From positions 62,001-126,000 of the forward strand of contig JAUIAO010000001.1 of assembly GCA_030425425.1 (NCBI GenBank): a DNA stretch of 64,000 bases, given 5' to 3'. A model generated the notes under the pieces. The model was not told the origin of the DNA, made no database searches, and saw nothing but the letters and a program-made list of their open reading frames with translations. Origin of the DNA: Bacteroidia bacterium (GTDB lineage Bacteria > Bacteroidota > Bacteroidia > Cytophagales > Cyclobacteriaceae). The first letter of the stretch is position 1, and the number at the start of each line of letters is the position of its first letter. Below are positions 13,983 to 31,376 of the stretch, in pieces. The translations under genes were made by a program, and so were the position numbers.

Positions 13983-16900
13983 GTGAACCCTCAACCCAAC
14001 AAACCCTTTCATATATATCGATCTGGAGCCGGATCAGGTAAGACTTATACGCTCGCCAAATCATATCTCACTTTAGCACTTTCACGTGGATCATCGTTCA
14101 AGAATGTCCTTGGTGTGACTTTTACCAACAAAGCCACAGAGGAGATGAAAAGTAGGATTGTTAGCATTTTAAAAGCACTGGCTAACAACGCTGGACATCC
14201 GATGAGCAAAGATTTGTGTGAAGCCCTGGAAATCAATGAATCGGAATTGGTGAAGAGAGCAAATGGTGTGCTAAGCGATATTCTTCACCAATATGGCCGG
14301 TTCAGCATTGTGACTATCGATAGTTTTTTCAATCAGGTAATTCGGTCCTTTGCCAAGGAAATGGGTCTGCAAGGAACGTTCACGATTGATCTTGATCAGA
14401 AAACAGTGATCGAACGAGTAATAGATCGAATGTTGATGGAGATAGGCGATGAGGACAAAAAGCAGCTAAGAGGGTGGTTGACGGAATTTGCAGAGCATCG
14501 GGTAGATGAAGGACAAACATGGGATTTTAGATCAGATGTGACCAAACTCGCCGGTGAAATCCTCAAAGATGATTTTAAAAAGCATGCCTCTGAAATCTTG
14601 AGCCTGAGTGAGAAACCTGGCTTTTTCCTTCAGATGAGGAAAGAGCTTCAGGTAGTACGATTTCAGTTTGAGAATGAAATCAAGAATCACGCCAAGCAAT
14701 TCAACCAATATTTAGAAAAGGAAGGCCTCTCGGTAGATGTATTTACATACAAAGCTTCAGGTCCAGCCGGGCTTTTTGACAAGCTGGTGAAGTCCATTGA
14801 AAAAGGAGATAAAATAGAGATTCCAAAAAGAAGCCGTGATGCCAAAGGAGAGATTACCAAATGGCTATCCAAACCTAACCTGAAAACAGGGCACCTGAAT
14901 CATCAGTTAGAATCTGTCATTATTCCTTTGCATAGCGATCTGATCGATTATATAGATCAGCAAATGATCGTTTATCAGTCTGCCAGGGAAGTACTCAGGT
15001 ATCTGTTTACGTTTGGGATTTTGGCACAGATCAATCGCTACATTCAGTGGTATCGCGATGAGCATGATGTCATGTTGATTGCAGATTTGCCGGATTTTCT
15101 ACATCAGATCATCAATGATAGCGATACACCTTTCATTTATGAGAAAGTTGGTTCCATTTTCAGTCATTATCTGATAGATGAGTTTCAGGATACATCAGCT
15201 TTCCAATGGGATAACTTTATGCCTTTAGTAAAAAACTCTACTGATTCCGAGCAATTCAGCATGGTAGTAGGAGATGTGAAGCAATCCATTTATCGATTCC
15301 GTGGAGGAGATTGGGAACTGCTGCAAAACAGAGTAAAAGAGGATATTGGAGACTACCATGCCGAAACGCACAATCTGGACGTGAACTGGCGAAGTGATCC
15401 GGCTATTATTGAATTTAATAATGACTTTTTCATCCGAGCAGCAGATTTTTCCAGAAGTTGGTTTGCTGATATGGTTACGGAAGTACAGCATAATACCATT
15501 CGTGGCAGGATAGAAGAAAATGTTCAACGGGTCTTTGACACTTTTAGCGATGTAGCTCAGAGAATTCCCGAATCGAAAAAGGAATCCAAAGGAAGCATTC
15601 GGCTTGAATTTATCGGAAAGGATGACAATGAAGAAGGGTGGACTCAGGAAGCTATTGAACGAACGATCAGGCAAGTGGAGGATTTGCAGCGCAAGGGTTA
15701 TGAACTCAGAGATATTGCGATCCTGACCAGATATTCCCGTGAAGGGAGGGACATTGCCAATGCTTTTATCGATTATAGAAATTCAGAGTTGGCTGACCCT
15801 GACTTAAAATATGAAGTTGTGAGTAGTGAGGCGCTTTACCTCACTTCCAGTCATTTGGTTCGTTTCATCGTTTCGCTGATCAAGTGGCTCAATGATGAGA
15901 AAAATACCATTGTGCTTTGCGAGTGGTTGTATGAATATCAGCACTATATTTTGAATGCTGAGGTTTCGGAAAGTGATATTTTCTCCACTTATGATCAGTG
16001 GGAAAAACTCGTTCCGAAAGCTTTTAAAGAACAAAGAGAATACTTAAAAACCTTACCACTTTATGAATTGGTGGAAGGAATCATTCGTTTGTTCGAGCTC
16101 AATCAATTGCAGGAAGAATTTGCCTATTTGCAAGGCTTTCAGGATGCCGTTTTGGATTATTCTAAAAACGAACGAGGGGATATTGCCTCCTTTTTGGAAT
16201 GGTGGGAGAAAGTCCGAAAGGAGCGTGCCATTCAGATATCTGATCAAAACAATGCCATCAAGATTCTGACCATTCATAAGTCAAAAGGACTTGAGTTTCC
16301 GGTAGTGATTTTACCATTTCTCAGCTGGGATTTTGACAATACTTCTGGATTTAATGACACCATTCTTTGGTGTGAGGGCAATGTGGCTCCTTCGCCTTTC
16401 AATAAGCTGCCGGTTTTGCCATTAAAATATTCAGCCAATCTTGCGAACACCTATTGGGGAGAGCAGTATTATTTGGAAAAACTCAAAACGCATCTGGACA
16501 ATCTGAATATGCTTTATGTGGCATTTACTCGTCCGGTGGAAGTATTGATTGGTTATGGGAAATTACCTTCCGGGAAATCATTAAATGCTTACACGCTCAT
16601 TCACAAGCTTTGTGCTGACACAGAAAACTGGGACGATGCAACGAATATCTTTCAGGTTGGGGAAATACCTACTCAACAAAACGAAGCTGTTGAAACGATT
16701 GAATACGGTCTGGAAAACTATCAAAGCAGTCCATGGAGGAATAAAGTGAGTCTGCAAATGCGTGGCTCAGCGGAGTTGAATGACGAAATTGTGATTGATG
16801 CGGCGCAGGCTGGAATAGTGATGCATGAACAGTTGAGCAAGATCAGATATCGACAGGATTTGGATCGCTACATTGGATTGCCAGTGCACGAAGATCTCAG

Positions 16901-17186
16901 AGCGATTGTAGATCACCCTGAGTTAGCAGATTGGTTTTCTGATGATTGGAATGTGGCCAATGAAGTGCCAATTTTATTGCCAGGTGGAGATTTTAAGCGT
17001 ATCGACCGATTGAACTGGCGAGAAAATGAGACGGTTGTCATTGACTTTAAAACAGGAGCTAAGCGTAAAAAAGACCATTATCAGGTCAAAGATTATTTGA
17101 AAATACTGGCTCAAATGGGCTATACGGGGATTAAAGGATATCTGGTGTATTTGCAGGACTTAGAAGTAGAGGAGGTGGCGAAATGA
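13983..17186 (+). CDS. UvrD/RecB/AddA-like exodeoxyribonuclease helicase subunit
   Basis: YRSGAGSGKTYTLAKSYL, DEFQDTSAFQWDNF, GDVKQSIYRFRGGD, C-terminal nuclease VIDFKTGAKR. Confidence 0.92.
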   Translation: MNPQPNKPFHIYRSGAGSGKTYTLAKSYLTLALSRGSSFKNVLGVTFTNKATEEMKSRIVSILKALANNAGHPMSKDLCEALEINESELVKRANGVLSDILHQYGRFSIVTIDSFFNQVIRSFAKEMGLQGTFTIDLDQKTVIERVIDRMLMEIGDEDKKQLRGWLTEFAEHRVDEGQTWDFRSDVTKLAGEILKDDFKKHASEILSLSEKPGFFLQMRKELQVVRFQFENEIKNHAKQFNQYLEKEGLSVDVFTYKASGPAGLFDKLVKSIEKGDKIEIPKRSRDAKGEITKWLSKPNLKTGHLNHQLESVIIPLHSDLIDYIDQQMIVYQSAREVLRYLFTFGILAQINRYIQWYRDEHDVMLIADLPDFLHQIINDSDTPFIYEKVGSIFSHYLIDEFQDTSAFQWDNFMPLVKNSTDSEQFSMVVGDVKQSIYRFRGGDWELLQNRVKEDIGDYHAETHNLDVNWRSDPAIIEFNNDFFIRAADFSRSWFADMVTEVQHNTIRGRIEENVQRVFDTFSDVAQRIPESKKESKGSIRLEFIGKDDNEEGWTQEAIERTIRQVEDLQRKGYELRDIAILTRYSREGRDIANAFIDYRNSELADPDLKYEVVSSEALYLTSSHLVRFIVSLIKWLNDEKNTIVLCEWLYEYQHYILNAEVSESDIFSTYDQWEKLVPKAFKEQREYLKTLPLYELVEGIIRLFELNQLQEEFAYLQGFQDAVLDYSKNERGDIASFLEWWEKVRKERAIQISDQNNAIKILTIHKSKGLEFPVVILPFLSWDFDNTSGFNDTILWCEGNVAPSPFNKLPVLPLKYSANLANTYWGEQYYLEKLKTHLDNLNMLYVAFTRPVEVLIGYGKLPSGKSLNAYTLIHKLCADTENWDDATNIFQVGEIPTQQNEAVETIEYGLENYQSSPWRNKVSLQMRGSAELNDEIVIDAAQAGIVMHEQLSKIRYRQDLDRYIGLPVHEDLRAIVDHPELADWFSDDWNVANEVPILLPGGDFKRIDRLNWRENETVVIDFKTGAKRKKDHYQVKDYLKILAQMGYTGIKGYLVYLQDLEVEEVAK

Positions 17187-20050
17187 AAGGAAAAAACACT
17201 TTTATAGCAGAACTAGCCAATATAATTCTTGAAGAAAACCGAGAACATCTTCATGAAGTGACGGTAGTGTTTCCAAACAGAAGAGCTGGATTGTTTTTTC
17301 GGCAGGCCTTGGCCGAGTTGATTGATAAACCGGTGTGGATGCCGCAGGTCATCAGCATGCAGGATTTTGTGGGCCGATTGTCGAATCTTCGAATTCTTGA
17401 AATACTGGAGGCTGTTTTTGAGCTTTTTGAAGTTTATAAAAAGCAGCAAAACAAAGAGGAGTCGTTTGATCAGTTCTTCTTCTGGGGAGAGATGATCCTT
17501 CGCGATTTTGAGGAAATCGATCATTATCTGGTGAATGCAGAGCATCTTTTTACCAGCATAAAAACACAGAAGGAGCTCGACGAAGAGTTTTACTTTTTGG
17601 ATGAAGAAGACAAGCGCATCATTCAGAGCTTTTGGAGTAGTTTCCTTCCAAAGACTACTAAAAGTCAGGAAGCGTTTCTGGAAACCTGGAAAATTTTACT
17701 GCCGATTTACACCAATTTCCGGGAGGTTTTAAAGAAGAAAGGACTTGCTTATGGAGGTATGCTCTATCGGGAAGTTTCAGAAAACCTTGAAGGAGTTCTG
17801 AGTCATTCGAGGTTGTATTTTGCCGGATTCAATGCCCTCACATTTGCTGAAGAAAAGATCATCAAGCATTTTGTGCTGGAAGAAAAAGCACGTGTCATCT
17901 GGGACATGGATGACTATTATTTCTCCAACCCAAAACAAGAAGCTGGTTTTTTCCTTCGAGAATACAAGAAAGACAGTGTTTTAGAAAAGACATTTCCAGA
18001 AGATCCAGATCAGCGAATCAAAGAGTCAAAATCTTTCTTTGCTACAGGAGTTTCGCTGGAAGTTGGACAGACCAAAGCTCTGGCTGAAGACTTATCTAAA
18101 GTAGCTCAAAACCCGGATTTCGATCCTCAAAATACGGTGGTGGTATTACCGAAGGAGCACATGCTTTTTCCGGTTTTGCATGCTATTTCTCCAGAGATTG
18201 ACAAGATCAATATCACAATGGGCTATCCGCTCAAAGATACTCCAGTTTACAGTTTACTGGAAAATGTACTCCAACTGCAGAACCTACGGAAAGATCCCGT
18301 AAAAGGCGCAAGCTTTTACTACAAATCTGTGCTAGAGGTAGTAGAGCATCCTTTGCTTTATGTTTTGGAATCAGAGCCGATCAATGCTTTAATCGCTGAT
18401 ATTCGAAAACGAAATAGGATTACACTAAATCTTGACGATATCAAGTTGACTCACCCGATTTTTCAGTCCATTTTCACAAAACCCGAAAATCCTTTTGAAT
18501 ACTTACTGGATATTCTGCGAAAGCTGTACGAGCACTGGAAAGATCAGGGACATGATTTAGAACTGGAATTTATCAGTCGGTTCTACCAGCATGTGCAGCA
18601 GCTACATGAAATGATCGGTGAGCGTACGGAAGATTTGGATTATGATTTCCTGATTAAGCTCTTTCGAAGACTATCACGAAGTATGAAAATTCCGTTTACG
18701 GGTGAGCCACTGAATGGCCTTCAGGTAATGGGGATTTTGGAGACACGGAATCTTGATTTTGAAAATGTCTTCATCCTCAATATGAATGAAGACAGCTGGC
18801 CTGCAGCTCCACGTCGAGGTTCGTTTATACCGTTCAATATTCGCAAAGCCTTCAGTTTGCCGGTTTTTGATCATCAGGATGCCATCTATGCGTACTTGTT
18901 TTATCGATTGCTTCAGAGAGCGAAGAACATTCACATCTATTACAATACGGTTTCGGAGTTCAATATCAATGGGGAACTGAGCCGATTGGTGCAGCAATTG
19001 GAAATCGAGTCTGATCATGTATTTAAGAAGCGCATTTTGGCTAGTCCGATTAAGACGAAGATGCCGGAAGCCATTTCGATAGAGAAGAATGAATTGATTC
19101 TTTCGAAAATGGAGCGATACGCGGTAGGCTATACAGGAGCAAAACCTTCACTGCTTACACCATCTGCTATAAACACCTATTTGGATTGCAGTTTGAAGTA
19201 TTATTTCAAATATGTGGAGAAACTGTATGAGCCAGAGGAGGTTCAGGAGGAAATGGAGCCCATGGTTTTTGGGAATATTCTTCACAACAGCATGGAGATG
19301 TTGTATCAAAATTTCATCAAAGAATATAAGCGAACTGAAGTTTATCCACAGGATTTTATGTGGATCAAGCAAGGGGTTCGCGGTGCAATCAATAAAGCAT
19401 TTATCGATCACTATGGAGTGAAGAATGAAAAGAAATTCAAGCTAGAAGGTCGATCCATTATCGCGCATGATATCCTTGTGAAGTTTATTGAGAAGATTCT
19501 GGATTACGATCAGCAGTATGCTCCATTCAGAATCATTGGACTGGAAATCGATCAAAAGAAAGGAGAGGAGGTCACATTCCCGATTCAGATCAATGGAGAG
19601 GAAAAGCGTATTCGGCTTAAAGGAATCATCGACCGGGTTGATATGAAGCAGGGTAAAGTTCGCGTGGTGGATTACAAAACGGGTCGTGATGAAAAGGACT
19701 TTAAGGATGTGCCTTCATTGATCGATCGATCAGACAAGAAGCGCAAGAAAGCAGTTTTCCAGGTCTTCTATTATTGTTACTTGTTTTTACAGCATTATGA
19801 TGGAGAGTTCGATAGCATAGAACCTGGGCTGTTTAATAGTCGGGATTTGTTCGGAGCGGATTTTGATTGGCAGGTTTTTGACAGCAAACACAAAACTCCG
19901 GTCTCTGATTTCAGGCAATACTTGCCAGAGTTTGAAACAATTTTAGGAGAAGTATTAACTGATATTTACAATCCCGAAACGAGATTCGATCAAACTGAAG
20001 ACAGAGACAAGTGTAAGTATTGTACCTATGTTGATATCTGTGGGAGGTAG
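17183..20050 (+). CDS. AddB-like PD-(D/E)XK nuclease subunit
   Basis: C-term VRVVDYKTGRDEKDF and CKYCTYVDIC Fe-S cysteines; 4-bp overlap with upstream helicase. Confidence 0.9.
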   Translation: MKGKNTFIAELANIILEENREHLHEVTVVFPNRRAGLFFRQALAELIDKPVWMPQVISMQDFVGRLSNLRILEILEAVFELFEVYKKQQNKEESFDQFFFWGEMILRDFEEIDHYLVNAEHLFTSIKTQKELDEEFYFLDEEDKRIIQSFWSSFLPKTTKSQEAFLETWKILLPIYTNFREVLKKKGLAYGGMLYREVSENLEGVLSHSRLYFAGFNALTFAEEKIIKHFVLEEKARVIWDMDDYYFSNPKQEAGFFLREYKKDSVLEKTFPEDPDQRIKESKSFFATGVSLEVGQTKALAEDLSKVAQNPDFDPQNTVVVLPKEHMLFPVLHAISPEIDKINITMGYPLKDTPVYSLLENVLQLQNLRKDPVKGASFYYKSVLEVVEHPLLYVLESEPINALIADIRKRNRITLNLDDIKLTHPIFQSIFTKPENPFEYLLDILRKLYEHWKDQGHDLELEFISRFYQHVQQLHEMIGERTEDLDYDFLIKLFRRLSRSMKIPFTGEPLNGLQVMGILETRNLDFENVFILNMNEDSWPAAPRRGSFIPFNIRKAFSLPVFDHQDAIYAYLFYRLLQRAKNIHIYYNTVSEFNINGELSRLVQQLEIESDHVFKKRILASPIKTKMPEAISIEKNELILSKMERYAVGYTGAKPSLLTPSAINTYLDCSLKYYFKYVEKLYEPEEVQEEMEPMVFGNILHNSMEMLYQNFIKEYKRTEVYPQDFMWIKQGVRGAINKAFIDHYGVKNEKKFKLEGRSIIAHDILVKFIEKILDYDQQYAPFRIIGLEIDQKKGEEVTFPIQINGEEKRIRLKGIIDRVDMKQGKVRVVDYKTGRDEKDFKDVPSLIDRSDKKRKKAVFQVFYYCYLFLQHYDGEFDSIEPGLFNSRDLFGADFDWQVFDSKHKTPVSDFRQYLPEFETILGEVLTDIYNPETRFDQTEDRDKCKYCTYVDICGR

Positions 20051-20095
20051 TTGCTTTACGCTCATCGCCATTCGCTTTTTTCGCCGTGGTTCGTT

Positions 20096-20142
20096 CCTCA
20101 TGAATCCCATACGCTAATCGCTAACCGCAGTTCGCCTTACGC
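20096..20142. repeat. Dispersed intergenic repeat copy 1
   Basis: cctcatgaatcccatacgctaatcgctaaccgcagttcgccttacgc; second copy at 20347-20400. Confidence 0.85.
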
Positions 20143-20195
20143 TTTTCGCCTTCTTTCAGAACCGTCATTCAGACCGCAGGAAAGAATCTCCAACC

Positions 20196-20219
20196 GGCGC
20201 GAGTGTCCTCACTCGTGCC
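20196..20219. repeat. REP-like hairpin with GTGTCCTCAC core
   Basis: GGCGCGAGTG-TCCT-CACTCGTGCC, 10-bp stem with one wobble. Confidence 0.75.
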
Positions 20220-20346
20220 TTTGATGACGATGCAAACACTTTCCCAGACTCCCCGGTATTTTTTTCGTGCCTCAGAAATCCCTGGAGTGACTTACGGAAA
20301 GAATTGTTTACTTTTCACTAATAACTCTTTTCCCTGTGATTCGCGA

Positions 20347-20400
20347 CCTCATGAATCCCATACGCCTTTCGCTAATGGCTAACCACAGTTCGTCTTACGC
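20347..20400. repeat. Dispersed intergenic repeat copy 2
   Basis: cctcatgaatcccatacgcctttcgctaatggctaaccacagttcgtcttacgc. Confidence 0.85.
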
Positions 20401-20590
20401 CAAACAGTGCAAAGCTTAGGGCGTAGGGCGAATAGCGTTCAGCGATCACATGATTTTTATCAGTTTCCCGGAATCTTTATACTTTTTCTTCTAATCACAA
20501 TACGTTACACAAAAAACTACCATAAAGTGGGTATAGGAATTAATGGTATGGGGTGCTAGATTAGCTGCCATAATCAAAAAAGATTAGCAT

Positions 20591-21286
20591 ATGTCACTCA
20601 CAGACTATCAAACACTTTTGCCGCAGATTCAGCAGATCGCGGCAGAGGACATCAAGACTCCCAACATTCCCATCGATGTATTCATACAGGAAGCGGTCAA
20701 CCTCAAAGAATGGGCAAACGATGATCAGGCGGCACTGATGGGAGTGGGGCTTCCCGAATCCTCACTAGACCTACTGGAGCAGGGAGCAGGGGCACTCAGC
20801 CATGCACAGGCTGTATGGATGAAGGAGCGCTACAGCCAGGAAGAAGCCAAAAAGCTCTGGGATGCACAAAGCCCGGCCGCTTATGAACTCCGAAGCGATC
20901 TGGAAGCAGCCTTCGACTATGCCTTTGATGGCAATGACGAATTATTGGCCAAAGTGGACGCGATCAAAGAAGGCACTGGTCATGAAGACATGATTCAGGA
21001 CCTGGTGGAGCTCTCCGTACTGGGCAAAGACCATAAGGCCGAACTCACAGCCATCAACTTTGACCACACCCAGCTGGACACAGCGGATCGTCTGGCTGAG
21101 GAGATGCGCAACTTACTGGCACAGGTGAATGGAGAAGACACGAAGAAAGAAGAAAAAACCATCCGCGACCAGGCATATACCCTGCTAAAGGAAACGGTGG
21201 ATAGAGTGAGGAAGGCAGGGAAGTATGCACTGAGGAAAGATAAGGATAGATTGGAAGGGTATTACAGTGCTTACAATAGGAGGTAA
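20591..21286 (+). CDS. Conserved hypothetical protein (231 aa, acidic, helix-rich)
   Basis: Long ORF with ATG start and coding-like composition. Confidence 0.7.
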   Translation: MSLTDYQTLLPQIQQIAAEDIKTPNIPIDVFIQEAVNLKEWANDDQAALMGVGLPESSLDLLEQGAGALSHAQAVWMKERYSQEEAKKLWDAQSPAAYELRSDLEAAFDYAFDGNDELLAKVDAIKEGTGHEDMIQDLVELSVLGKDHKAELTAINFDHTQLDTADRLAEEMRNLLAQVNGEDTKKEEKTIRDQAYTLLKETVDRVRKAGKYALRKDKDRLEGYYSAYNRR

Positions 21287-21290
21287 TCCA

Positions 21291-21329
21291 AATAATATTT
21301 CGTCCCGGCGACCGGGACGAAATATTATT
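21291..21329. terminator. Perfect 18-bp inverted repeat / strong hairpin just after stop codon
   Basis: AATAATATTTCGTCCCGG-CGA-CCGGGACGAAATATTATT. Confidence 0.75.
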
Positions 21330-21498
21330 ATACGGGAGGGGTCTTGAGTGTGCTGGGGCGAAATAAAATATGACGGGAGAGGTGAATGGTCTGCCGGGAA
21401 GCATAAAAAGAACGCCGGGAAAGGCTCAGCACCCACCGGGAAGGCTCAATGAGTGCCGGGAATCACTTTTCACCCTACGGGGATATCTGAAATAAGGG
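21313..21498. repeat. Degenerate tandem array with CGGGA phased at 20-21 bp
   Basis: CGGGA-type motifs at 21313, 21333, (21354 TGGGG), 21374, 21395, 21416, 21437, 21457, 21478 (CGGGG). Confidence 0.75.
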
Positions 21499-21680
21499 GT
21501 TAAAACTGATATGAATCGCAGGTTAGGGTTGTAGGAGTCGCAGAAGGGGGTGAGAGGTGGTGCAGGAGGAGATTTTCGTACCGTCATTTGCTTTGAAAGG
21601 TATACGGCGGTATATTGAAATCAAATAGATAACAGAATGAAGGTTTATGAAGAATTCTGTTTTGAGAAAAAATAACCAAA

Positions 21681-21754
21681 AGTGTAATACTGATTATGTG
21701 TAACAGCAGTTACACAATAACGCAAGTGTTACACTATAACGAATGTTATGGGGC
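21681..21754 (+). other. Left boundary of cassette array: hairpin-rich site ending in core GTTATGGGGC
   Basis: GTGTAAC-AGCA-GTTACAC hairpin nested in AGTGTAATAC...GTGTTACACT; GTT at 21745. Confidence 0.5.
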
Positions 21755-21789
21755 ATCTGTGCAACTATTAAGAACTTGCCAATTAGAAT

Positions 21790-22719
21790 ATGGACAGCAG
21801 TAAAAAATTTTCACCAGCATCTATAACTGCATTGAAAGAGGCTCTGATTAACATCTATTGGAAGAAACAAGACCTCAAGAACTTTGTCAAACTGAGCATT
21901 GAAAACGACTCAATAATCAATACTATTAATTGGGAATTCAATCGAAAATTTGAGAGCGTCAATGAGTTAGTTGACCGAATGGTCGCAAGGAAGGACATTT
22001 ATTATGACGACCTAATAAGACTGATATATGATGTTTCAAATTTTGAAGATTTCTCGCACTTGAAAATATGGGAAGACTCAGATGAAAAAATAAAGAAAGC
22101 AAAAGACTCAGTCACTCGTTTGCGACAATTTGCTCACGGGTATTTCAAGATTGAAGAAGAAAAAAAGGAGCTAGAAAAGAAACGAAAGAAAGCTCAAGAA
22201 CAACTCGAATCATTCAAAAGAAGCCAGGAACAAATAGAAACTCTAAAAACTGAGTTTTTCCAAATAGCTGTTGAAACCAATGCTCAGAAGAGGGGACGAC
22301 TTCTTGAACCGTTTCTCAATCAACTTTTTACTCTTTTTGATCTCGAACCAAAGAAATCATTCCAACTTAAAGATGAGCAAATTGATGGTGCATTCACATT
22401 TGAAGGTAATGACTATCTCGTTGAAGCCAAATGGCAAAAAGAACCAGTTGAAACAGGCGACTTGAAGAAATTTGCAGGAACACTTAGTGATAAACTTAAA
22501 AACACTTTAGGTCTATTTATCTCGATTGACGGTTTTTCATCTGGATCTAAAGAATTTACAGGGTCGAACGCTCGATCTATGATTTTAATGGATGGCATGG
22601 ATTTAAACTTTGTATTAGATCAAAGAATTGATTTGCATCATCTACTATTCCGGAAAAGGCGACACGCTGCTGAAACTGGAACTATCTATTATCCAGTAAC
22701 TGAAATATTGAAGGATTAA
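21790..22719 (+). CDS. Restriction endonuclease-like protein (PD-(D/E)XK nuclease C-term, helical/coiled-coil N-term), cassette 1 cargo
   Basis: RGRLLEPFLNQLFTLFDL...DEQIDGAFTFEGNDYLVEAKWQ nuclease core (E, D, ExK). Confidence 0.8.
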   Translation: MDSSKKFSPASITALKEALINIYWKKQDLKNFVKLSIENDSIINTINWEFNRKFESVNELVDRMVARKDIYYDDLIRLIYDVSNFEDFSHLKIWEDSDEKIKKAKDSVTRLRQFAHGYFKIEEEKKELEKKRKKAQEQLESFKRSQEQIETLKTEFFQIAVETNAQKRGRLLEPFLNQLFTLFDLEPKKSFQLKDEQIDGAFTFEGNDYLVEAKWQKEPVETGDLKKFAGTLSDKLKNTLGLFISIDGFSSGSKEFTGSNARSMILMDGMDLNFVLDQRIDLHHLLFRKRRHAAETGTIYYPVTEILKD

Positions 22720-22720
22720 A

Positions 22721-22887
22721 GCCCCATAACATTTGCTATGAATGAATGGGGTTTCATCGGTTAGGATAGTTTTGTGGGGATTGGAAAGTCCGCCACAAGT
22801 TTTAAATTTAAATCAAGGCGTGGCTATGTGCGAGACGAGAGGTTAGTGTTTTCTAATCCCCACTCATCATAGCTAGGCGTTAGTAGC
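22721..22887 (+). other. attC-like recombination site 1
   Basis: R'' GCCCCATAAC; spacer ATTT; L'' GCTATGA[A]TGAATGGGG pairs with CCCCACTCATCATAGC; spacer TAGGC; R' GTTAGTA. Confidence 0.8.
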
Positions 22888-22898
22888 AATTCCCCATA

Positions 22899-23450
22899 TT
22901 GCATATGATTGATGAACTTGATATTGAGGCAACTCTAAGAACCCGAAAACTGGTCGAACCCAAACGCAAATTTTGGGATGTTGTAACCTTCGCAATGCTC
23001 TCCCTTCTACCAATAATCTTATTCACCCTTGTAAATACTCATCAATTTCAACAAGAGATAACTTTTTGGCGAATACTATGGATCATCTACTTGAACGGAA
23101 TTGTCGGATTACTAGTTTACCTTCTAATAAAAGGGTATCAGAACGTTAAAGCTCTTGACAAGATCGGTGAATTTGAGAATTTGGAGAACGCCAAATCCAA
23201 AGCCTTTAACATCATTTCCGAACTTGGTTGGCAATTGAGGATCAATCAAGAAAACTATTTAAGAGCTTGGGCCTGGAACAATCTTGGACAATCTCAGATG
23301 GTTACTCTAGTTTTCACACAGACGAACGAACTCCTGATCAATAGCCTTAGTGACGACTCTGGCGCATTTCAACGTCTCAGATTTGGGTTTTCATACGGAT
23401 CGAACAGAGAGAATGTAGAGGATTTTTCAACCAAGTGGAACGCAGAATAA
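22899..23450 (+). CDS. Hypothetical membrane protein with two TM segments (cassette 2 cargo)
   Basis: ORF with TTG 22899 or ATG 22905 start, about 20 bp after core site GTT. Confidence 0.7.
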   Translation: MHMIDELDIEATLRTRKLVEPKRKFWDVVTFAMLSLLPIILFTLVNTHQFQQEITFWRILWIIYLNGIVGLLVYLLIKGYQNVKALDKIGEFENLENAKSKAFNIISELGWQLRINQENYLRAWAWNNLGQSQMVTLVFTQTNELLINSLSDDSGAFQRLRFGFSYGSNRENVEDFSTKWNAE

Positions 23451-23454
23451 AAAG

Positions 23455-23693
23455 CTACTAACAAGCGATGATGGCGCATGGCCTTACTTAGCAGTCTACC
23501 AAGAGTCTGCTAAACATCCCGCTTATCTGCCGCCAAGGAAGTGAAGTGCTTTCTACTTTCTTTCGCTAGTGGGAGTTTATTATCTTCATGGCGCACTGCG
23601 TATCTGATGCTTTGAATGCACCGGCAGATAAGCTACTTTTATTGCAATTAATTAAGCTCGGAGGCCACAGCGCCATATCTGGGCGTTATAGGC
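23455..23693 (+). other. attC-like recombination site 2
   Basis: R'' GCTACTAAC; spacer AAGC; L'' GAT[G]ATGGCGC pairs with GCGCCATATC; spacer TGGGC; R' GTTATAG; long structured middle. Confidence 0.8.
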
Positions 23694-23713
23694 AATAGGA
23701 GTTACTCAATAAT

Positions 23714-24751
23714 TTGAAGCCAGTTTACAAATACAGATCGGGGGACAAAGAAACATTTGAACGTGATCTTAAATCTATAAGAAAGAATCACTTCTGGTCC
23801 GCCAGCATAGATTCATTAAATGATCCCTGTGAGGCCTTCATTTCAACTCAGAACTTCCAAATTCAACTTGGACTTATTATTAAGATTTTCAACAGGAAAT
23901 TAGATAAATCTGCAAGCGACGAGGTAGTTAATGCATTAAACAATGTCATTGAACGAAGAAAAGTCATTGGCATTTATTCCCTGTCACAAACCTACAACCA
24001 CGAGCTTCTTTGGGCACATTATGCTAACTCACATAAAGGCTTTTGTATCGAATATGACTTGGACTTACTTCTTACTACGAATAAGATGGATAAAATCTAT
24101 TCATTTCCCATTAAGTATTCGAACAAAATACCACAAGTTGACATATCAGATATTTCGGGTAAAGGTGGACTACCAATAATTCAAAAACTCGCTGGAACCA
24201 AATCAAAAAGTTGGTCTTATGAAGAAGAATTCCGACTAATAACTGATCAATCAGGCTCGTTTCAATATAACCATCGTGCAATTACGGCCATTTATTTTGG
24301 ATTGAGAATGGAGCAGGATAAAAGAGACCTAATCATGAATGAATTAGCTGGCAGAGGAATTTCCTTCTATCAAATCATTCAAATCGAAGGTACTTACAGA
24401 TTTGAAAGGGAGTTAATTGAAGACGGGGCTCAAAACGAAGTAACCTATTTGACTCAAATTCCAAGTACCAATAAGTCGATCAAACCAATCAAATTCGAAA
24501 TCCGAACTCGGAACTACACGAAGTTTTCAAAATTAGGTGAGGTAACTATTGATTTAGAAGAACCCATTAACAAAGATCAACTCCTTGAGATTGGCACTTA
24601 CATAAAATCAGAACTCTTTTATGAAGCTCAAAAGGTGTTAATGTGGTATTACTTACCAAACCAAAAAGATGACTTTGCACCTTGGGCATTAACCAACTTT
24701 GAAAAAGGTGAATTTGAGGTGAAGATAAACGACTTCATTGAACTTGAATAA
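23714..24751 (+). CDS. DUF2971 family protein (cassette 3 cargo)
   Basis: YKYRSGDKETFERDLKSIRKNHFWSASIDSLNDPCEAF, LLWAHYANSHKGFCIEYD, SYEEEFRLI; TTG start. Confidence 0.8.
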   Translation: MKPVYKYRSGDKETFERDLKSIRKNHFWSASIDSLNDPCEAFISTQNFQIQLGLIIKIFNRKLDKSASDEVVNALNNVIERRKVIGIYSLSQTYNHELLWAHYANSHKGFCIEYDLDLLLTTNKMDKIYSFPIKYSNKIPQVDISDISGKGGLPIIQKLAGTKSKSWSYEEEFRLITDQSGSFQYNHRAITAIYFGLRMEQDKRDLIMNELAGRGISFYQIIQIEGTYRFERELIEDGAQNEVTYLTQIPSTNKSIKPIKFEIRTRNYTKFSKLGEVTIDLEEPINKDQLLEIGTYIKSELFYEAQKVLMWYYLPNQKDDFAPWALTNFEKGEFEVKINDFIELE

Positions 24752-24763
24752 CTGCCTATCTGC

Positions 24764-24819
24764 CAAGGTTTGTGTCCTCACAAAACTTGCAATGGTTTCG
24801 ATTAGTGAGGACACTAATC
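24764..24819. repeat. Inverted pair of REP-like hairpins (BIME-like)
   Basis: CAAGGTTTGTG-TCCT-CACAAAACTTG and GATTAGTG-AGGA-CACTAATC. Confidence 0.75.
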
Positions 24820-24884
24820 AAGGCGAAAGTTGCTTTTTTCTTTCTGGTTTTAGACTTTCAAAACCTATCTGCGGCATGTTTGCC

Positions 24885-24909
24885 TCCGTTGGTGTTTTTC
24901 ACCAACGGA
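24885..24909. repeat. Perfect 10-bp stem hairpin
   Basis: TCCGTTGGTG-TTTTT-CACCAACGGA. Confidence 0.8.
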
Positions 24910-25104
24910 CTAGATGACGTGAGAAGGGTACACTAACAGGCTTAAAGTTCCTTCAAGGCTTTATGCCAGCGAAAGCATCTATTCGACAATTAATTACTTT
25001 CATTTCACGTGCACCATTCCCACAGTTCCGAACTTTGTGATACTTTAGCCTGCTAAAATGAAAGTGCTGTAAATGACGCTTTCTGAACGGTTAATCAGGT
25101 CACT

Positions 25105-26190
25105 ATGAAAAGGAAAATCAGTATCATTTTTGGTGGAAAATCTGCAGAACATGAAGTCTCTCTCAATTCGGCTTCTAATATCTTCAATGCAGTAGATCTG
25201 GAGAGATTTGATCCGCTGTTGCTTGGAGTTGATAAGGCCGGACAGTGGTGCTACAATCCAGATTATCCTTCTGAGCATATTGACCTGAGAAAGCTTGATT
25301 ATTATCCAAATTCCAGACCTGTAACACTCAGGAATAGACATGGCCAGATAAATATCATTGATCAGGAATCAAATAAGGTTTTAGACAATTTTGAAGTGGC
25401 TTTTTCTATCATTCATGGCACGTTTGGAGAGGATGGAGTCATCCAGGGCTTTTTCAAATCTCAGGATATTCCATTTGTAGGGCCGGATGTTTTGGGTTCT
25501 TCCATTTGCATGGACAAGGACATTACTAAAAGACTCCTTAGAGATAGTGGAATCCCTATTGCGGATTTTATTACTGTTTATAGGGAAAATCAAGCGGACA
25601 TCAACTATGAGGAAGCAAAGAACCAATTAGGATTACCACTTTTTATCAAACCATGTAATGCCGGTTCGTCAGTTGGAGTATCCAAAGTGACTGACGAAGG
25701 TTCTTTCCAACAGGCTTTGTCAGAAGCATTTAGATTCGATCGGAAAGTGCTGATTGAAGAAGCAATCGTCGGGCAAGAGCTTGAGTGTGCAGTGCTTGGA
25801 AATGAAAATCCACAGCCTTCTATTATTGGTGAGATTGCTGCAACAAAGGAGTTCTATACCTATGATGCCAAATATGTGGATGCCGATGGTGCTAAATTGA
25901 TCATACCAGCGCGGATTGAAGAAAACGATTCAGATAAATTGAGAAAAGGAGCAGTAGCAGCATATAAAGCCACTTGCTGTGAGGGCTTAGCTCGGGTTGA
26001 TTTTTTCCTTCGCTCTGATGGATCTTATGTTGTCAATGAAATCAACACCATTCCCGGCTTTACGGAGATCAGTATGTATCCTAAGCTGTGGGAACAAACG
26101 GGTATTTCATATTCTGATTTGATCACAAAATTGATCGATCTTGCCGTAGAGCGTCACGAAAGAAATAGCCGATTTGAAACGATGATGTAA
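25105..26190 (+). CDS. ddl: D-alanine--D-alanine ligase
   Basis: FGGKSAEHEVSLNSA, IKPCNAGSSVGVSKV, VVNEINTIPGFTEISMYPKLWE. Confidence 0.97.
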   Translation: MKRKISIIFGGKSAEHEVSLNSASNIFNAVDLERFDPLLLGVDKAGQWCYNPDYPSEHIDLRKLDYYPNSRPVTLRNRHGQINIIDQESNKVLDNFEVAFSIIHGTFGEDGVIQGFFKSQDIPFVGPDVLGSSICMDKDITKRLLRDSGIPIADFITVYRENQADINYEEAKNQLGLPLFIKPCNAGSSVGVSKVTDEGSFQQALSEAFRFDRKVLIEEAIVGQELECAVLGNENPQPSIIGEIAATKEFYTYDAKYVDADGAKLIIPARIEENDSDKLRKGAVAAYKATCCEGLARVDFFLRSDGSYVVNEINTIPGFTEISMYPKLWEQTGISYSDLITKLIDLAVERHERNSRFETMM

Positions 26191-26203
26191 GGGAGAAATT
26201 CTC

Positions 26204-26470
26204 TCAGTCATAACGCGTCCACATTCTAATCACCTTAACAGTTTTTTCATCTTCAAGTACTTGATATACTAATCTATGTTGAATATTAATTCTTCTGGAA
26301 TATGCCCCATCAAGATCACCTATTAGTTTTTCGAAAGGAGGGTATTCTGAGAATGGTTCATTCTCAATAAGATTCAATAGTTCCTGGATTTTTGGTTTTA
26401 TTCCGGAAGAGGCTGCTTTTTTGGCATCTTTTTGTGCCTGTTTGGTAAATCGGAGCTGATATTTGCTCAT
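26204..26470 (-). CDS. yoeB: Txe/YoeB family toxin
   Basis: EPFSEYPPFEKLIGDLDGAYSRRINIQHRLVYQV...VKVIRMWTRYD. Confidence 0.92.
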   Translation of the reverse strand: MSKYQLRFTKQAQKDAKKAASSGIKPKIQELLNLIENEPFSEYPPFEKLIGDLDGAYSRRINIQHRLVYQVLEDEKTVKVIRMWTRYD

Positions 26471-26709
26471 CAGTGCAGAGTCGCAGATGTTTCAGAAATT
26501 GTTGTTTCCAACCCCTCTCTAATCGATTCTCGCATTCCGGGTATAGAAAGTAAATACAATGTTTCTTGAATCGCATTCCAATCTGCTTCACTCACCAAAA
26601 CGGCATTGTTTCGTTTTCCCGAAATCTGAATGGGTTGATGTGTTTCAGCTGTTTCATCTACTATCTTGTAAATGTCCTTTCTCGCTTCCGTAATACTAAG
26701 TGATTTCAT
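26470..26709 (-). CDS. yefM: YefM/Phd family antitoxin
   Basis: MKSLSITEARKDIYKIVDE...QISGKRNNAVLVSEADWNAIQETLYLLSIPGM. Confidence 0.92.
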   Translation of the reverse strand: MKSLSITEARKDIYKIVDETAETHQPIQISGKRNNAVLVSEADWNAIQETLYLLSIPGMRESIREGLETTISETSATLH

Positions 26710-26854
26710 ACTGTTAACGTACTACAAAACGTACGTAAAGTCAAGTAAACGGTTTTTGAACAAATCAACCTTTAAGTCTATATTCGCGACGCTTTTGTGC
26801 CAATATAGGTTAAAAGTACCGGAGCATTCCGGTTTTTGTTCTTTACATACTTCG

Positions 26855-27481
26855 TTGAAATATTACACAGAGGACGAGTGGATCAACTGGGTTGATCGGC
26901 TGTCAGAAGACAATTACCTGGTTTTAGATGATTTTATCTCTGATCAGGAATTGGACGTATTGATGTCGAATTTCAAAGATCATTTGAAAGAGGATGACTT
27001 CAAGAAAGCAGGTATTGGTACAGGGGATGAGTTTCAGCTTCGCACTGAAATCAGAGGAGACTATATCAGATGGCTGGATCCGGGACGTGATATATCCCTT
27101 CACGATTTTTTCGAACGAATCAATGAGGCAATCTATGTTTTCAATCGATATTGTTTCCTTAGTTTATCAGGTTCAGAATTTCACATGGCTCATTATCCTC
27201 CGGGCACTTTTTACAAACGGCACCTGGATCAATTTAATGCAGTCAGTAACCGTCTAATTACCGTCATATTGTATTTGAACACACACTGGAAAGAAGGTGA
27301 TGGTGGTGAGCTACAGGTTTATCTGGATGATGAAGCTGTGAAAATAGCTCCGATTGCGAAGCGAGTTGTTTTTATGCGCAGCGATATGATCGAACATGAA
27401 GTTCTGGAGACCAACAAAGATCGATATAGCGTTACCGGATGGTTACTTTATCAGCCTCCAGGACTTACATTCTTGACTTAA
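26855..27481 (+). CDS. 2OG-Fe(II) oxygenase (prolyl 4-hydroxylase-like)
   Basis: HYPPGTFYKRHLDQF (HxD) ... RVVFMRSDMIEHEV; track start 26672 overlaps yefM, so an internal start (e.g. TTG 26855) is more likely. Confidence 0.8.
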   Translation: MKYYTEDEWINWVDRLSEDNYLVLDDFISDQELDVLMSNFKDHLKEDDFKKAGIGTGDEFQLRTEIRGDYIRWLDPGRDISLHDFFERINEAIYVFNRYCFLSLSGSEFHMAHYPPGTFYKRHLDQFNAVSNRLITVILYLNTHWKEGDGGELQVYLDDEAVKIAPIAKRVVFMRSDMIEHEVLETNKDRYSVTGWLLYQPPGLTFLT

Positions 27482-28119
27482 TCATTTTCTTCTTCTTTGA
27501 GCAAATCTTCAAATTTCATTTTCACTCGTTCAATTTTGGGTCTTGAGACTTGTTGGATGTATGGATAATTAGGGTGATTTTTCTCAAAGTCCTGATGATA
27601 ATACTCTGCTTTAAAAAAGGATTCCAGAGGGTTGATCTCTGTGACAATATCTTTATCATAATCAGGTTGGATTTCTGCAATTACTTTTTTGGCTGTCTCC
27701 AGTTGTGCTTCATTATGATAAAAAATCGCAGAGCGATATTGCGTACCCACATCCGGGCCTTGCCTGTTCAATTGAGTGGGATCATGTGCCGTAAAAAATA
27801 TTTTTAGCAACACTTCATAGCTGATCACCTCAGGGTCAAAATATACCTGCACACATTCAGCATGTCCAGTCTTGCCAGTTCCGATTACCTTGTATCTTGC
27901 TGTTTCTTCTTTTCCGCCAGAGTATCCTGAGACAACATCTTGTACGCCTTCTATTTGCTCAAAACTTGCTTCTGTACACCAAAAGCATCCTCCGGCCAGA
28001 GTAGCAGTATCTAATTTTTGGGTACTTGCGTTCTCAATGGACCGGTCGTTCGTATCTGGTTTTTTTGCCTGGCAGCTCAGTATAGAGATGGCGATGATCG
28101 CCGGAATTATATACTTCAT
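27478..28119 (-). CDS. msrA: Peptide-methionine (S)-S-oxide reductase
   Basis: LAGGCFWCTEASFEQIEGV, GHAECVQVYFDPEVISYE; lipoprotein signal. Confidence 0.95.
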   Translation of the reverse strand: MKYIIPAIIAISILSCQAKKPDTNDRSIENASTQKLDTATLAGGCFWCTEASFEQIEGVQDVVSGYSGGKEETARYKVIGTGKTGHAECVQVYFDPEVISYEVLLKIFFTAHDPTQLNRQGPDVGTQYRSAIFYHNEAQLETAKKVIAEIQPDYDKDIVTEINPLESFFKAEYYHQDFEKNHPNYPYIQQVSRPKIERVKMKFEDLLKEEEND

Positions 28120-28390
28120 ATTTCAAGTGATTTCGATTCTGGTAAATGAACTATTCTAAAAGGTATTAGGTTTAGAAAATATGTTTGCAAACCACAGAGA
28201 GTTTTTAACGTTTTTTAATAACCGGATTATGCAACAATTATAGTTCTTCTTAGTTATGTAAGTAATTGATAGTTAATGAAATGAATCAAATTGTAAGCTT
28301 CACAACATTTATAATCAATTATGTAACAAAATTTAAAATAAGCAGTTAGATAAAATAAATCATTAAGGTTAGGTTAGGCGGTGATAGATG

Positions 28391-28427
28391 GCGCGGTTTC
28401 CTGTTCAAGGGGCCGCGCTTTTCTTTT
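28391..28427 (+). terminator. Intrinsic terminator, + strand T-tract, no + strand gene upstream
   Basis: GCGCGG...CCGCGC followed by TTTTCTTTT. Confidence 0.7.
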
Positions 28428-28444
28428 ATAAGCCTACTTCGCGA

Positions 28445-30226
28445 TTATTCTTGCCCTAGCCAATCATTCCTTCTTTTAAGTTCCGATTTCTTTATGTTTT
28501 CACTGCTTAGGTATGTCAGGATGATTCTCGGGTCTTGTTTGGTGGTGAATTGACTATGGACTGTTTCTCCAAGCTGAGAATAAGTGATGCTATAGGTTTT
28601 CCCGATTTCTAGTCTATTGATTACGCTGTTCAGTCTGGCTGTTGAGCTGACTTCAGTTCCGTCTATACTTATCAGTCTGTCACCTTTTTCCATTCCAGCT
28701 TCATAGAGAGCAGTTCCCCTTAGAAGATTGGAAGAGACTATTCCTTTATCAACCCTTGGGTTGTTAAAATAAGCTGACAGAGGATTTTGTAAAGACATTT
28801 TGATTCCAAATTCTCCAAAAAGAGTTTTGAAATTAGGTAACTCTGACCCGTAAATCTGTTCTGTAAAAAAGCGATCGGCAAAATCTGGATCATCGGTTAG
28901 TTCAGCTAAAAGTTTTTTCAGGTCAACTAATTGGTAAGGTGTTTCTGGTTTTCCAAATCTTTCCCAGACCAATCGCGTGAAGTCATCTAGTGTTTTGCGG
29001 TATTCGAGGCGCAAGGTGAGATCTAGACCCAATGCAATCACTTCGCCATAGTTGTAATAGGACACAAAGACATTTTCAAAATTGGTTTCGTCATTGGCAG
29101 TGCCAGCATCAGTGAAAGTGGCGAATTCACTCATTGCAGCCGCCCCGCGAAAACTTCTTGCCGGGCTGTTCATGACATAATTGAGTGTATTAATCTGGGT
29201 TCTGATATATGTCTCAGGAGTAATGATGCCAGTTCTTACTAAAACCAAATCCTGATAATAGTTAGTAAACCCTTCTCCAAACCACAAAGCGTCTGTCATG
29301 TTTGCTTCATCAAAATCGAACGGTTCTAAATCTTTCGGTCGGATTCTCTCGATATTCCACGCATGAAAAAACTCATGCGAAACAGTTCCAATAAGCTTGT
29401 CTGCATGATTTCGAAGGTTGCCTCTTGAAGAGCAAACTGTTGAGTTTCGGTGCTCCATACCATCACCATGTACATATGGATTATAAGTCATCAAGAAAGT
29501 GTATTCACCAAAATCGAAATTTGGAAGCTCGCCAAATATGTCCCGTTCTTCATTGACAATTAATTTGGTCCATTCCATGTAATGATCCAATTCTTCATCA
29601 TTACCCGTATGCATCACAGCCATCTTAATTTGCTGTCCATCTACTTCCCATTGACGCGTATCCATCTCTCCATAGATCGTGGGGCTATCATAGAAATAAG
29701 CATAGTCAGGAGCTGAGAAGGTGGAGTCATTAACTGACTGCAGCTGTGTAGCTACAATCCAGTTTTTGTGTTCAGGTATGATCAGATTGATTTCGCGGGA
29801 ATCCAATCCCACAGCATATGGGAAAGTGGCCGGCATGTTTATGTGTAGTTTTCTGGAATCTACACCCAGGTAAGTGCCATCTGCATGATTACCGTAAACT
29901 GTGTATTGAAAGTGGACCGTTTGGCTCTCTGGATATACCTGCCATTCGTAAGGAGTCACCTTTTCCACAGTTAGTGCTTTACCATTCTCATCTAAAGCGG
30001 TCACATCATATACATTTTTCGCAAAGCTATGAATAGCGTATCTACCCGGAGAAGTATTGGGCATCCTAAATCTAAGTTCCTGATCATCCAGATCTGTAAT
30101 AGTAACTGTCACCCTGAGTTCATGATGATGAATATTGGACAAATCCAGCTGGTAAGTAATTGGTTGCTGGGCTGATATTTTATGGAATGAAAAGCATGTT
30201 ATGAATAAGAAAACGAATGATCTCAT
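28445..30226 (-). CDS. M61 family metallopeptidase with PDZ domain
   Basis: VSHEFFHAWNIERIRPKDLEPFDF, WFGEGFTNYYQDL; start trimmed from 30292 to Met of the signal peptide. Confidence 0.9.
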   Translation of the reverse strand: MRSFVFLFITCFSFHKISAQQPITYQLDLSNIHHHELRVTVTITDLDDQELRFRMPNTSPGRYAIHSFAKNVYDVTALDENGKALTVEKVTPYEWQVYPESQTVHFQYTVYGNHADGTYLGVDSRKLHINMPATFPYAVGLDSREINLIIPEHKNWIVATQLQSVNDSTFSAPDYAYFYDSPTIYGEMDTRQWEVDGQQIKMAVMHTGNDEELDHYMEWTKLIVNEERDIFGELPNFDFGEYTFLMTYNPYVHGDGMEHRNSTVCSSRGNLRNHADKLIGTVSHEFFHAWNIERIRPKDLEPFDFDEANMTDALWFGEGFTNYYQDLVLVRTGIITPETYIRTQINTLNYVMNSPARSFRGAAAMSEFATFTDAGTANDETNFENVFVSYYNYGEVIALGLDLTLRLEYRKTLDDFTRLVWERFGKPETPYQLVDLKKLLAELTDDPDFADRFFTEQIYGSELPNFKTLFGEFGIKMSLQNPLSAYFNNPRVDKGIVSSNLLRGTALYEAGMEKGDRLISIDGTEVSSTARLNSVINRLEIGKTYSITYSQLGETVHSQFTTKQDPRIILTYLSSENIKKSELKRRNDWLGQE

Positions 30227-30337
30227 AATCAATTTTTTATTGAGAACTGTGAAATTATTGCAACAGATTGGTAGTACAAATGAACCTTTCAAATAAAATA
30301 ATGAAAACTAATAGGTGCTTTCACGTTTGTAAGATTT

Positions 30338-31342
30338 ATGAAAATATTAATGTTCACATTTTCGGTGCTGTTTTCCTTTTCAACATTTGCTCAGATTAGG
30401 AATTTAGTATTTGAAGGAGCTGGAATGCGCGGTTTGGCTTATGCCGGTGTAGTAGAGGAGTTGGAAGCACAAGGTATACTTAAGGACGTAGAAAAAGTGG
30501 GCGGGACATCCGCAGGAGCGATTACGGCGTTGATGATAGCCTTGAAATACAATAGCAACGAGATTCAAAAGATATTATCTGATACGGAATTTCAAAATTT
30601 TAATGATGGTGGATTAGGAGGAATTAGCCGAATTAAAAATGAATTTGGATGGTATAAGGGAGAGGAATTTGAAAAATGGATTGAGAATATCATTGAAGCC
30701 AAAACGGGTGATGCAGGGATTATGTTCGGTGAACTTGATGCCGGTGGTTTCAAAGATCTCTATGTGGTCGTAACCAGCCTGAATGGTCAAAAACTAAAAG
30801 TATTGTCCGCAGATAATTATCCGAATATGAAGGTGAAAGATGCTGTGAGAGCCTCCATGTCCATTCCGCTCTATTTTCGTGCTGTATTCGTAGATGAGCA
30901 TGGTCATAGGTATAATGATTATAAAGACGGGCTAGACATTCTTATAGATGGAGGAATTATGGGAAATTATCCTATTTTCATTTTTGATGAAATTGTAAAC
31001 CCAAAAGCGTCGAACCTCAGAATTGCGAATGAACACACATTGGGTTTTAGAATAGATTCGAAAGATCAGATTCTACAAGATTCGATTGCTCGCCAGATTG
31101 CACCTTTTGAAATCAACAGTATTCAGGATTATGTGAGTGCGCTATACAATTTTACAATGGAAAGTGCCAATCGAAACCAACTCACTGAAGCCGATTGGGA
31201 TAGAACAGTGTCTATATCATCGGAAGGAATCGGTCCGGTAATTCGGAAATTTAGTCAGCAAGAGAAAGACCTACTGGTACAATCGGGTCGTAATTCAATC
31301 AAACAATACTTAATGGAAAATCATCAGGCCAACATAAAATGA
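30338..31342 (+). CDS. Patatin-like phospholipase
   Basis: LVFEGAGMRGLAYAGV, GGTSAGAI, DGGIMGNYP. Confidence 0.92.
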   Translation: MKILMFTFSVLFSFSTFAQIRNLVFEGAGMRGLAYAGVVEELEAQGILKDVEKVGGTSAGAITALMIALKYNSNEIQKILSDTEFQNFNDGGLGGISRIKNEFGWYKGEEFEKWIENIIEAKTGDAGIMFGELDAGGFKDLYVVVTSLNGQKLKVLSADNYPNMKVKDAVRASMSIPLYFRAVFVDEHGHRYNDYKDGLDILIDGGIMGNYPIFIFDEIVNPKASNLRIANEHTLGFRIDSKDQILQDSIARQIAPFEINSIQDYVSALYNFTMESANRNQLTEADWDRTVSISSEGIGPVIRKFSQQEKDLLVQSGRNSIKQYLMENHQANIK

Positions 31343-31376
31343 TGCATGACATGGAGAATGCTGCTAGTTTTGCAGC

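Follow-up and report, generated by a model that had tools for sequence, protein, structure and literature searches.

Gene-cassette recombination sites of a putative integron-like system widespread in Bacteroidia, whose recombinases lack the I2 domain

Integrons unite the gene of a tyrosine recombinase, an attI site and gene cassettes, which are joined to one another at G|TT and bring along an attC of their own. In attC, complementary R''/R' and L''/L' boxes are separated by an unpaired central spacer and enclose a terminal structure of variable form; two or three extrahelical bases lie on the R''-L'' arm, and the extra left-arm base is conserved. Clusters of attC sites without an integrase nearby are termed CALIN, and Xer/dif modules use a fixed 28-bp dif-like site with conserved 11-bp arms. 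The integron integrase, IntI, contains the additional I2 domain, described as the part that enables recombination of single strands, as required for the capture of cassettes and as absent from all other proteins, no intermediates being known (PMC7790495). Homology-independent, site-specific capture of aph(3')-IVb, together with 27 bp of 5' and 140 bp of attC-like 3' sequence, has been reported experimentally for Riemerella in a 2026 paper, whose authors call the mechanism not yet elucidated (PMC13148043).

Here we analyse a window of 64,000 nucleotides (C119:62001-126000; the term denotes the whole stretch of DNA) from a 5.85-Mb Bacteroidia genome in 121 contigs. The original prediction had assigned attC architecture to two sites between 22721 and 23693, a reading that our analysis supports for both. 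On re-reading the sequence, each site was located where it had been placed and with all of the parts ascribed to it. Site 1 (22721-22881, plus strand) consists of R'' (22721-22730, ending in AAC at 22728-22730), the left spacer ATTT, L'' (GCTATG[A]ATGA.., bulged base in brackets), L' (..TCATCATAGC), the right spacer TAGGC and GTT at 22879-22881, and measures 154 nt from AAC to GTT. Site 2 (23454-23687, plus strand) has R'' at 23454-23462, the spacers AAGC on the left and TGGGC on the right, the arms GAT[G]ATGGCGC (L'') and GCGCCATATC (L'), and a length of 228 nt between AAC at 23460-23462 and GTT at 23685-23687. When all GTTs lying 55-290 nt past AAC were compared, the proposed GTT was by far the best partner in both cases, with -14.6 versus -7.2 kcal/mol for the next one at site 1 and -17.9 versus -7.0 kcal/mol at site 2. 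The sequence between the arms had been called unrelated, which is true of site 1 versus site 2, but each interior has relatives of its own: that of site 2 shares 83% identity over 172 nt with a site on another contig of the same genome, and site 1 shares 92% identity over 165 nt with a site in another species (L061), where the counterpart sits behind a recombinase and another cassette.

Sites 1 and 2 terminate two of the three cassettes of an array that extends from 21745 to about 24759, all features of which lie on the plus strand, with the three genes oriented as the leader. The array opens with a hairpin-rich, attI-like leader (21685-21745, left edge approximate; fold z = -3.7 for the region), which ends in ATAACGAAT|GTT and provides the first insertion point, G|TT, at 21745/21746. 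Cassette 1 (TT...attC...G, 21746-22879) is bounded by a 10-nt terminal inverted repeat, GTTATGGGGC (21745) and GCCCCATAAC (22730), and its gene (21790-22719) encodes 309 aa with an Mrr_cat restriction-endonuclease domain (Pfam PF04471, 34.9 bits versus a cut-off of 21). Cassette 2 (TT...attC...G, 22880-23685) has a 9-nt terminal inverted repeat, GTTAGTAGC (22879) and GCTACTAAC (23462), and a gene for 183 aa (22899-23450) with hydrophobic stretches, as judged by eye, for whose product the Pfam search returned no family. Cassette 3 (23686-24759) begins with GTTATAGGC at 23685; its gene (23714-24751) encodes a 345-aa protein with DUF2971 (Pfam) that matches the PADLOC candidate defence family PDC-S31. 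The end of the cassette is truncated, R'' AAC and attC being lost or displaced; where the site would be expected lies an interspersed repeat (24767-24828; 82% match to a stretch of L037), followed by an attC-interior remnant (24828-24864; 89% match to L037, where the sequence is inside an attC-like site). An Rfam search of the window returned nothing but one tRNA.

The surroundings of the array include, upstream, an ORF at 20591-21286 without a Pfam family, which belongs to a block of ~1.2 kb (20070-21238) with a 93% identical copy on C58 (L039). Behind the array lies a D-alanine-D-alanine ligase gene (ddl, 25105-26190), for which an empty-site comparison found no counterpart at 1e-60 among five genomes of the same genus. 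Two adjacent ORFs of 88 and 79 aa (26204-26709) resemble, by eye only, a Txe/YoeB-type toxin and a YefM-type antitoxin.

The original prediction had cautioned that a CCCCAC arm of site 1 could pair with GTGGGG instead, and this worry proved justified for the integrated site, whose minimum-energy fold uses that pairing; a penalty of 3.8-5.1 kcal/mol is incurred when the L register is imposed. A fold of site 1 in its integrated form alone is misleading, since the complete site is present only in the circle. Once the cassette is excised, its own start supplies R', and the minimum-energy folds of both strands of both sites place R, spacers and L in register: the circular form contains an R stem of 9-10 bp, an unpaired spacer of 4/5 nt, an L stem and one extra base in the left arm. 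In the integrated array, R'' of one cassette faces R' of the next, and the two do not match. The inverted repeats at the cassette ends, which the original prediction did not contain, are stronger evidence than the folds of the sites; a search for GTT..AAC inverted repeats recovered those of cassettes 1 and 2 among chance hits.

We assembled 60 distinct sites of 74-276 nt from this genome and its relatives. MAFFT alignments of whole sites match the interiors and leave the arms unaligned, and arm pairing was therefore tested by duplex energies; the interiors vary too much in length for a covariance model. Left arms pair with their own right arms at a mean of -14.4 kcal/mol and with the right arms of other sites at -6.5 kcal/mol, which bears out the covariation among homologous sites that had been demanded of genuine attC. 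The summed arm energy amounts to -862 versus -395 (sd 16) under 10,000 permutations, and part of this gap reflects selection, as the tracer favoured well-pairing GTTs (second-best GTTs mostly reach -3 to -10). One extra left-arm base, proposed as a recognition feature, is present in both window sites but is not universal: 18 of the 60 sites have a net excess on the left, 8 on the right and 34 are balanced, whereas the class with 4/5 spacers, to which both window sites belong, comprises 10 sites with left excess, none with right excess and 5 that are balanced. A stands directly 3' of AAC in 60/60 sites, and a C immediately before GTT is found in 56/60. In 51 of 62 sites, the right spacer exceeds the left one in length. 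This count, the other site statistics, the partner frequencies of GTTs and the numbers of traced cassettes are biased upward, because partners were selected for their pairing and in part for the repeat that follows, and the statistics include noise from a few traced sites (L163, L141, L149) in which an unlikely GTT with spacers of ~15 was picked.

The cassette ends themselves form inverted repeats of the type GTTRNNNNNN..NNNNNNYAAC. Across 62 cassettes, 6.55 of the 7 variable positions agree with the opposite end of the same cassette versus 2.34 in other cassettes, a comparison that is partly circular, as own ends had been selected for matching; the match at the neighbouring R' is 2.46/7. Given this difference between own end and neighbour, pairing is kept within the cassette and not within the integrated site. 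GTTs located behind attC have a partner of score 9 or more in 67.5% of cases, compared with 11.1% for control GTTs. At cassette position 11, just beyond most inverted repeats, A is invariant (60/60; GTTRNNNNN(C/A)AT).

At least seven further arrays are present in the genome, and two of them begin directly behind a tyrosine-recombinase gene and a hairpin leader that is attI-like. With site 2 as query, related sites were found on C11, C114 and C93, along with weak matches on C113, and the arrays around these relatives read with the same grammar as the window array. One type of leader is common to five arrays (TATATTTGAATAT..AACGCGCA..TGCGCGTTGCATTAAT|GTT, with the end GCGTTGC(A/G)TTAAT|GTT), a second type is shared by the window and C114 (..GTAACA..ATAACGAAT|GTT in C114), and a third occurs on C10. 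On C91, the leader lies between the gene for a tyrosine recombinase of 293 aa, close behind its stop codon, and the first cassette, and C11 starts within a recombinase end and a leader identical to those of C91. The overlap of 114 nt (L035:1-114 on C11; L056 on C91) covers the recombinase end and the leader and gives way to divergence at GTTGGGCA, reflecting either two copies of the recombinase or a mixed population whose first cassettes differ. C10 encodes a second recombinase, ~45% identical to that of C91, with its own leader and cassette.

The occurrence of the DUF2971 cassette at two loci, after site 2 in the window and after the leader in C114, is the most direct trace of movement. Cassette 3 of the window and the first C114 cassette are 98.1% identical over 1075 nt; the match begins exactly at GTTATAGGC (GTT) and stops at GCCTAT, where C114 goes on with AACAGACGCTGATC.. 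Considering that stem-loops are common between genes and that the integrated site 1 does not fold into the attC register, one might take the sites for fortuitous palindromes and terminators that follow ordinary operon genes. However, the same boundaries recur in chains of up to seven cassettes, the cassette shared by two loci starts at GTT, and the arms covary. These observations refute a chance origin, to which we assign a practically negligible probability; the sites are not chance.

The recombinases linked to the arrays contain the motifs KDR, HxxR, GH and the tyrosine. In an alignment with the canonical IntI of the phylum, the insert between KDR and HxxR (I2, around patch III) is wholly absent from all recombinases compared, and a structure predicted for the L061 protein (mean pLDDT 81, pTM 0.60, domain placement unsure) likewise lacks an extra helix where I2 would lie. 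The IntI model TIGR02249 scores 194 and 199, below its cut-off of 265, and NCBIfam NF040815 ('site-specific tyrosine recombinase/integron integrase', XerA-like) yields 222 bits, just over the cut-off of that model; fold matches of the L061 model list XerA first and IntI4 lower. In a quick tree without bootstrap and with unsure rooting, canonical IntI forms its own clade (support 99), and the cassette-linked recombinases fall outside of it, as do homologs that have no visible cassette. Archaeal XerA and Xer recombinases are the closest relatives by family model and fold, but the gene neighbourhood with leader and cassettes sets the present recombinase apart. Similar to IntI, it carries a C-terminal SPLD-like motif, which was not seen in XerC and XerD of this genome. 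The C91 recombinase (L056:2104-2985, minus strand) contains a 5-aa insert, GPTIR, right after RHSFAT (the HxxR motif) that is present in none of the aligned relatives, and given this insert the protein may be inactive.

No recombinase was detected near the window array among the ORFs at 15000-32000 (by eye, with Pfam for the six nearest). Like a CALIN, the array is an attC cluster without an integrase nearby, yet it possesses its own attI-like leader, in a genome with a gene for a likely recombinase of a different type. An array of this kind could be a CALIN-like remnant of canonical integron activity by a lost IntI, with the XerA-like recombinases as bystanders, which would agree with the missing integrase, with the broken end of cassette 3 and with the presence of canonical IntI in other parts of the phylum (85 of 299 genomes in a phylum-wide sample). 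Canonical IntI was, however, recovered from 1 of 198 genomes of the class and was not found in this genome, leaders and cassettes lie directly behind I2-less recombinases in many genera, and a cassette at two loci with 98% identity points to fairly recent movement. We therefore consider an origin from a lost IntI very unlikely and favour, with a probability of roughly 85%, that the window harbours a mobile gene-cassette array of an integron-like system whose recombinase acts from elsewhere in the genome.

Homologs of the recombinase are frequent beyond this genome. A scan of a genome collection identified 15 loci, nearly all labelled Bacteroidota, and 103 of 149 genomes in a sample of the family have a homolog at 1e-60; remnants were found in the same-genus genome G002 and on NZ_JAMZMJ010000011 (Marinoscillum pacificum), and viral contigs contributed one remote relative with 24% identity. 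Past the recombinase stop there is often a hairpin and a GTT with an inverted partner 0.5-2.8 kb downstream: a hairpin leader ending at the cassette-opening GTT is located 25-100 nt past the stop on C91, on C10 and at about 20 other loci. At 22 recombinase loci, a GTT no more than 110 nt past the stop has a partner of score 9 or more, as do 8.8% of random positions. Five to seven consecutive cassettes were traced in L066, L143, L148, L153, L157 and L164. Many homologous recombinases have no visible cassette partner, and many loci end too soon past the gene for partners to be judged. Several near-identical copies of a 280-aa recombinase are found at different places in G113 (L142, L159, L160), with no evident cassette partners. 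Together, the sequence comparisons indicate that both window sites are genuine recombination sites of gene cassettes, belonging to an integron-like system widespread in Bacteroidia.

A plasmid search with the C10 recombinase led to the truncated 'xerD' (TnpF) gene beside tet(X3) in Acinetobacter. In the xerD-tet(X3)-res-ISCR2 arrangement of these plasmids, 'xerD' is ~50% identical to the C10 recombinase; however, it is N-terminally truncated, and the attC-like site has been cut away. The truncated gene is followed by a hairpin (TATACGCCATTTGGCGTATA) and then by GTTATGTGCCATTTTTG, with which the tet(X) unit (GTT|tet(X3)) begins. The unit starts exactly at GTTATGTGCC (GTT) in five contexts, the tet(X) loci being L168:6708-8160, L185:518-2026, L186:3137-6347, L187:157-1500 and L190. 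Unrelated DNA precedes this same start in Empedobacter brevis, Riemerella, E. falsenii and Sphingobacterium; in the first two, the preceding DNA is the right end of a different attC-like site. In the last three, the unit closes with the partner GGCACATAAC and the same attC-like site, and the sequences beyond diverge just behind GTT. The neighbouring cassettes could be traced before and after tet(X) in Riemerella (pRA0511), the latter spanning a catB gene. The tet(X) copy of Bacteroides fragilis, in which the exact start sequence is missing, was left out of the exact boundaries. Judging from these boundaries, tet(X) appears to be one cassette of this system, and tet(X3) of Acinetobacter is probably frozen in place behind the truncated recombinase and leader. 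In published accounts of xerD-tet(X3), we found no cassette or integron-like explanation. The capture of aph(3')-IVb by Riemerella anatipestifer likewise concerns a gene with a short 5' leader and an attC-like 3' segment and is site-specific, whereas recombinase, leader, cassette repeat and the wider system were not identified in that study (PMC13148043).

How could such arrays be assembled? We propose that a tyrosine recombinase encoded elsewhere, of the C91 or C10 family, would recognise the folded site of the excised cassette circle, in which the two cassette ends pair (R box), followed by a short unpaired spacer and by the paired L box. Strand exchange between G and TT would then join the circle to the attI-like leader or to the site of another cassette, and arrays would grow as leader-cassette-cassette. 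Cassette boundaries, leader, site architecture, covariation, recombinase linkage, the presence of one cassette at two loci and the absence of I2 can be read from the sequences; from these we infer that this recombinase would perform the reaction, that it would act in trans on the window array and that its substrate would be single-stranded and folded. Single-strand use without I2 contradicts the published view of this domain (PMC7790495). The same cassettes and the same enzyme could also operate on double-stranded DNA, in a manner similar to Xer/dif modules, with the long inverted repeats serving as binding arms instead of folded hairpins, so that the substrate alone would differ. The resemblance of the recombinase to XerA (222 bits with NF040815; top fold match) and the absence of the domain held to confer single-strand recombination are in line with such a substrate. 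In contrast, R and L boxes are free in sequence, with complementarity alone being kept, there is no fixed site with fixed arms as in dif (variable R positions agree at about the chance level, 2.34/7), site length ranges from 74 to 276 nt, and the longer right spacer in 51/62 is the asymmetry that a strand-specific folded site would need. We regard a double-stranded substrate as unlikely and prefer the folded one.

With integrons, sedentary chromosomal ones included, the system shares the recombinase gene next to an attI-like leader, cassettes that are cut and joined at G|TT and carry their own attC-like site, complementary R''/R' and L''/L' boxes with an unpaired central spacer and a variable terminal structure, many related sites per genome and the C before GTT. 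This C corresponds to a spacer G that adjoins AAC and is described for most known attC sites (PMC2727003). The differences concern the I2 helix, which the recombinase lacks, its placement outside the IntI clade (in the quick tree of unsure rooting), an R box that is hypervariable and about 10 nt long, an extra left-arm base that is not universal, and leaders that are scattered over the genome in several copies, mostly without a recombinase. The system works like an integron, and we file it beside, not inside, the canonical integron family, because a defining feature of that family, the I2 domain, was looked for and found to be absent. A literature search, covering neither preprints nor most subscription journals, found no prior description of this system.

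We lean towards the view that Bacteroidia possess an integron class of their own, in which recombinases that never had I2, or have lost it, act on folded attC-like sites. Such a class would represent a living form of the postulated I2-less, pre-IntI state and would have offered a route for the mobilisation of tet(X) and further resistance genes of Flavobacteriia. The system offers an explanation for the 'xerD' gene sitting beside tet(X3) as well as for the uptake of resistance genes by Riemerella without homology, and surveys built on an IntI-specific profile would probably overlook the recombinase. With attC-like folded sites but without I2, a widespread natural system such as this one would make the origin of integrons directly testable.
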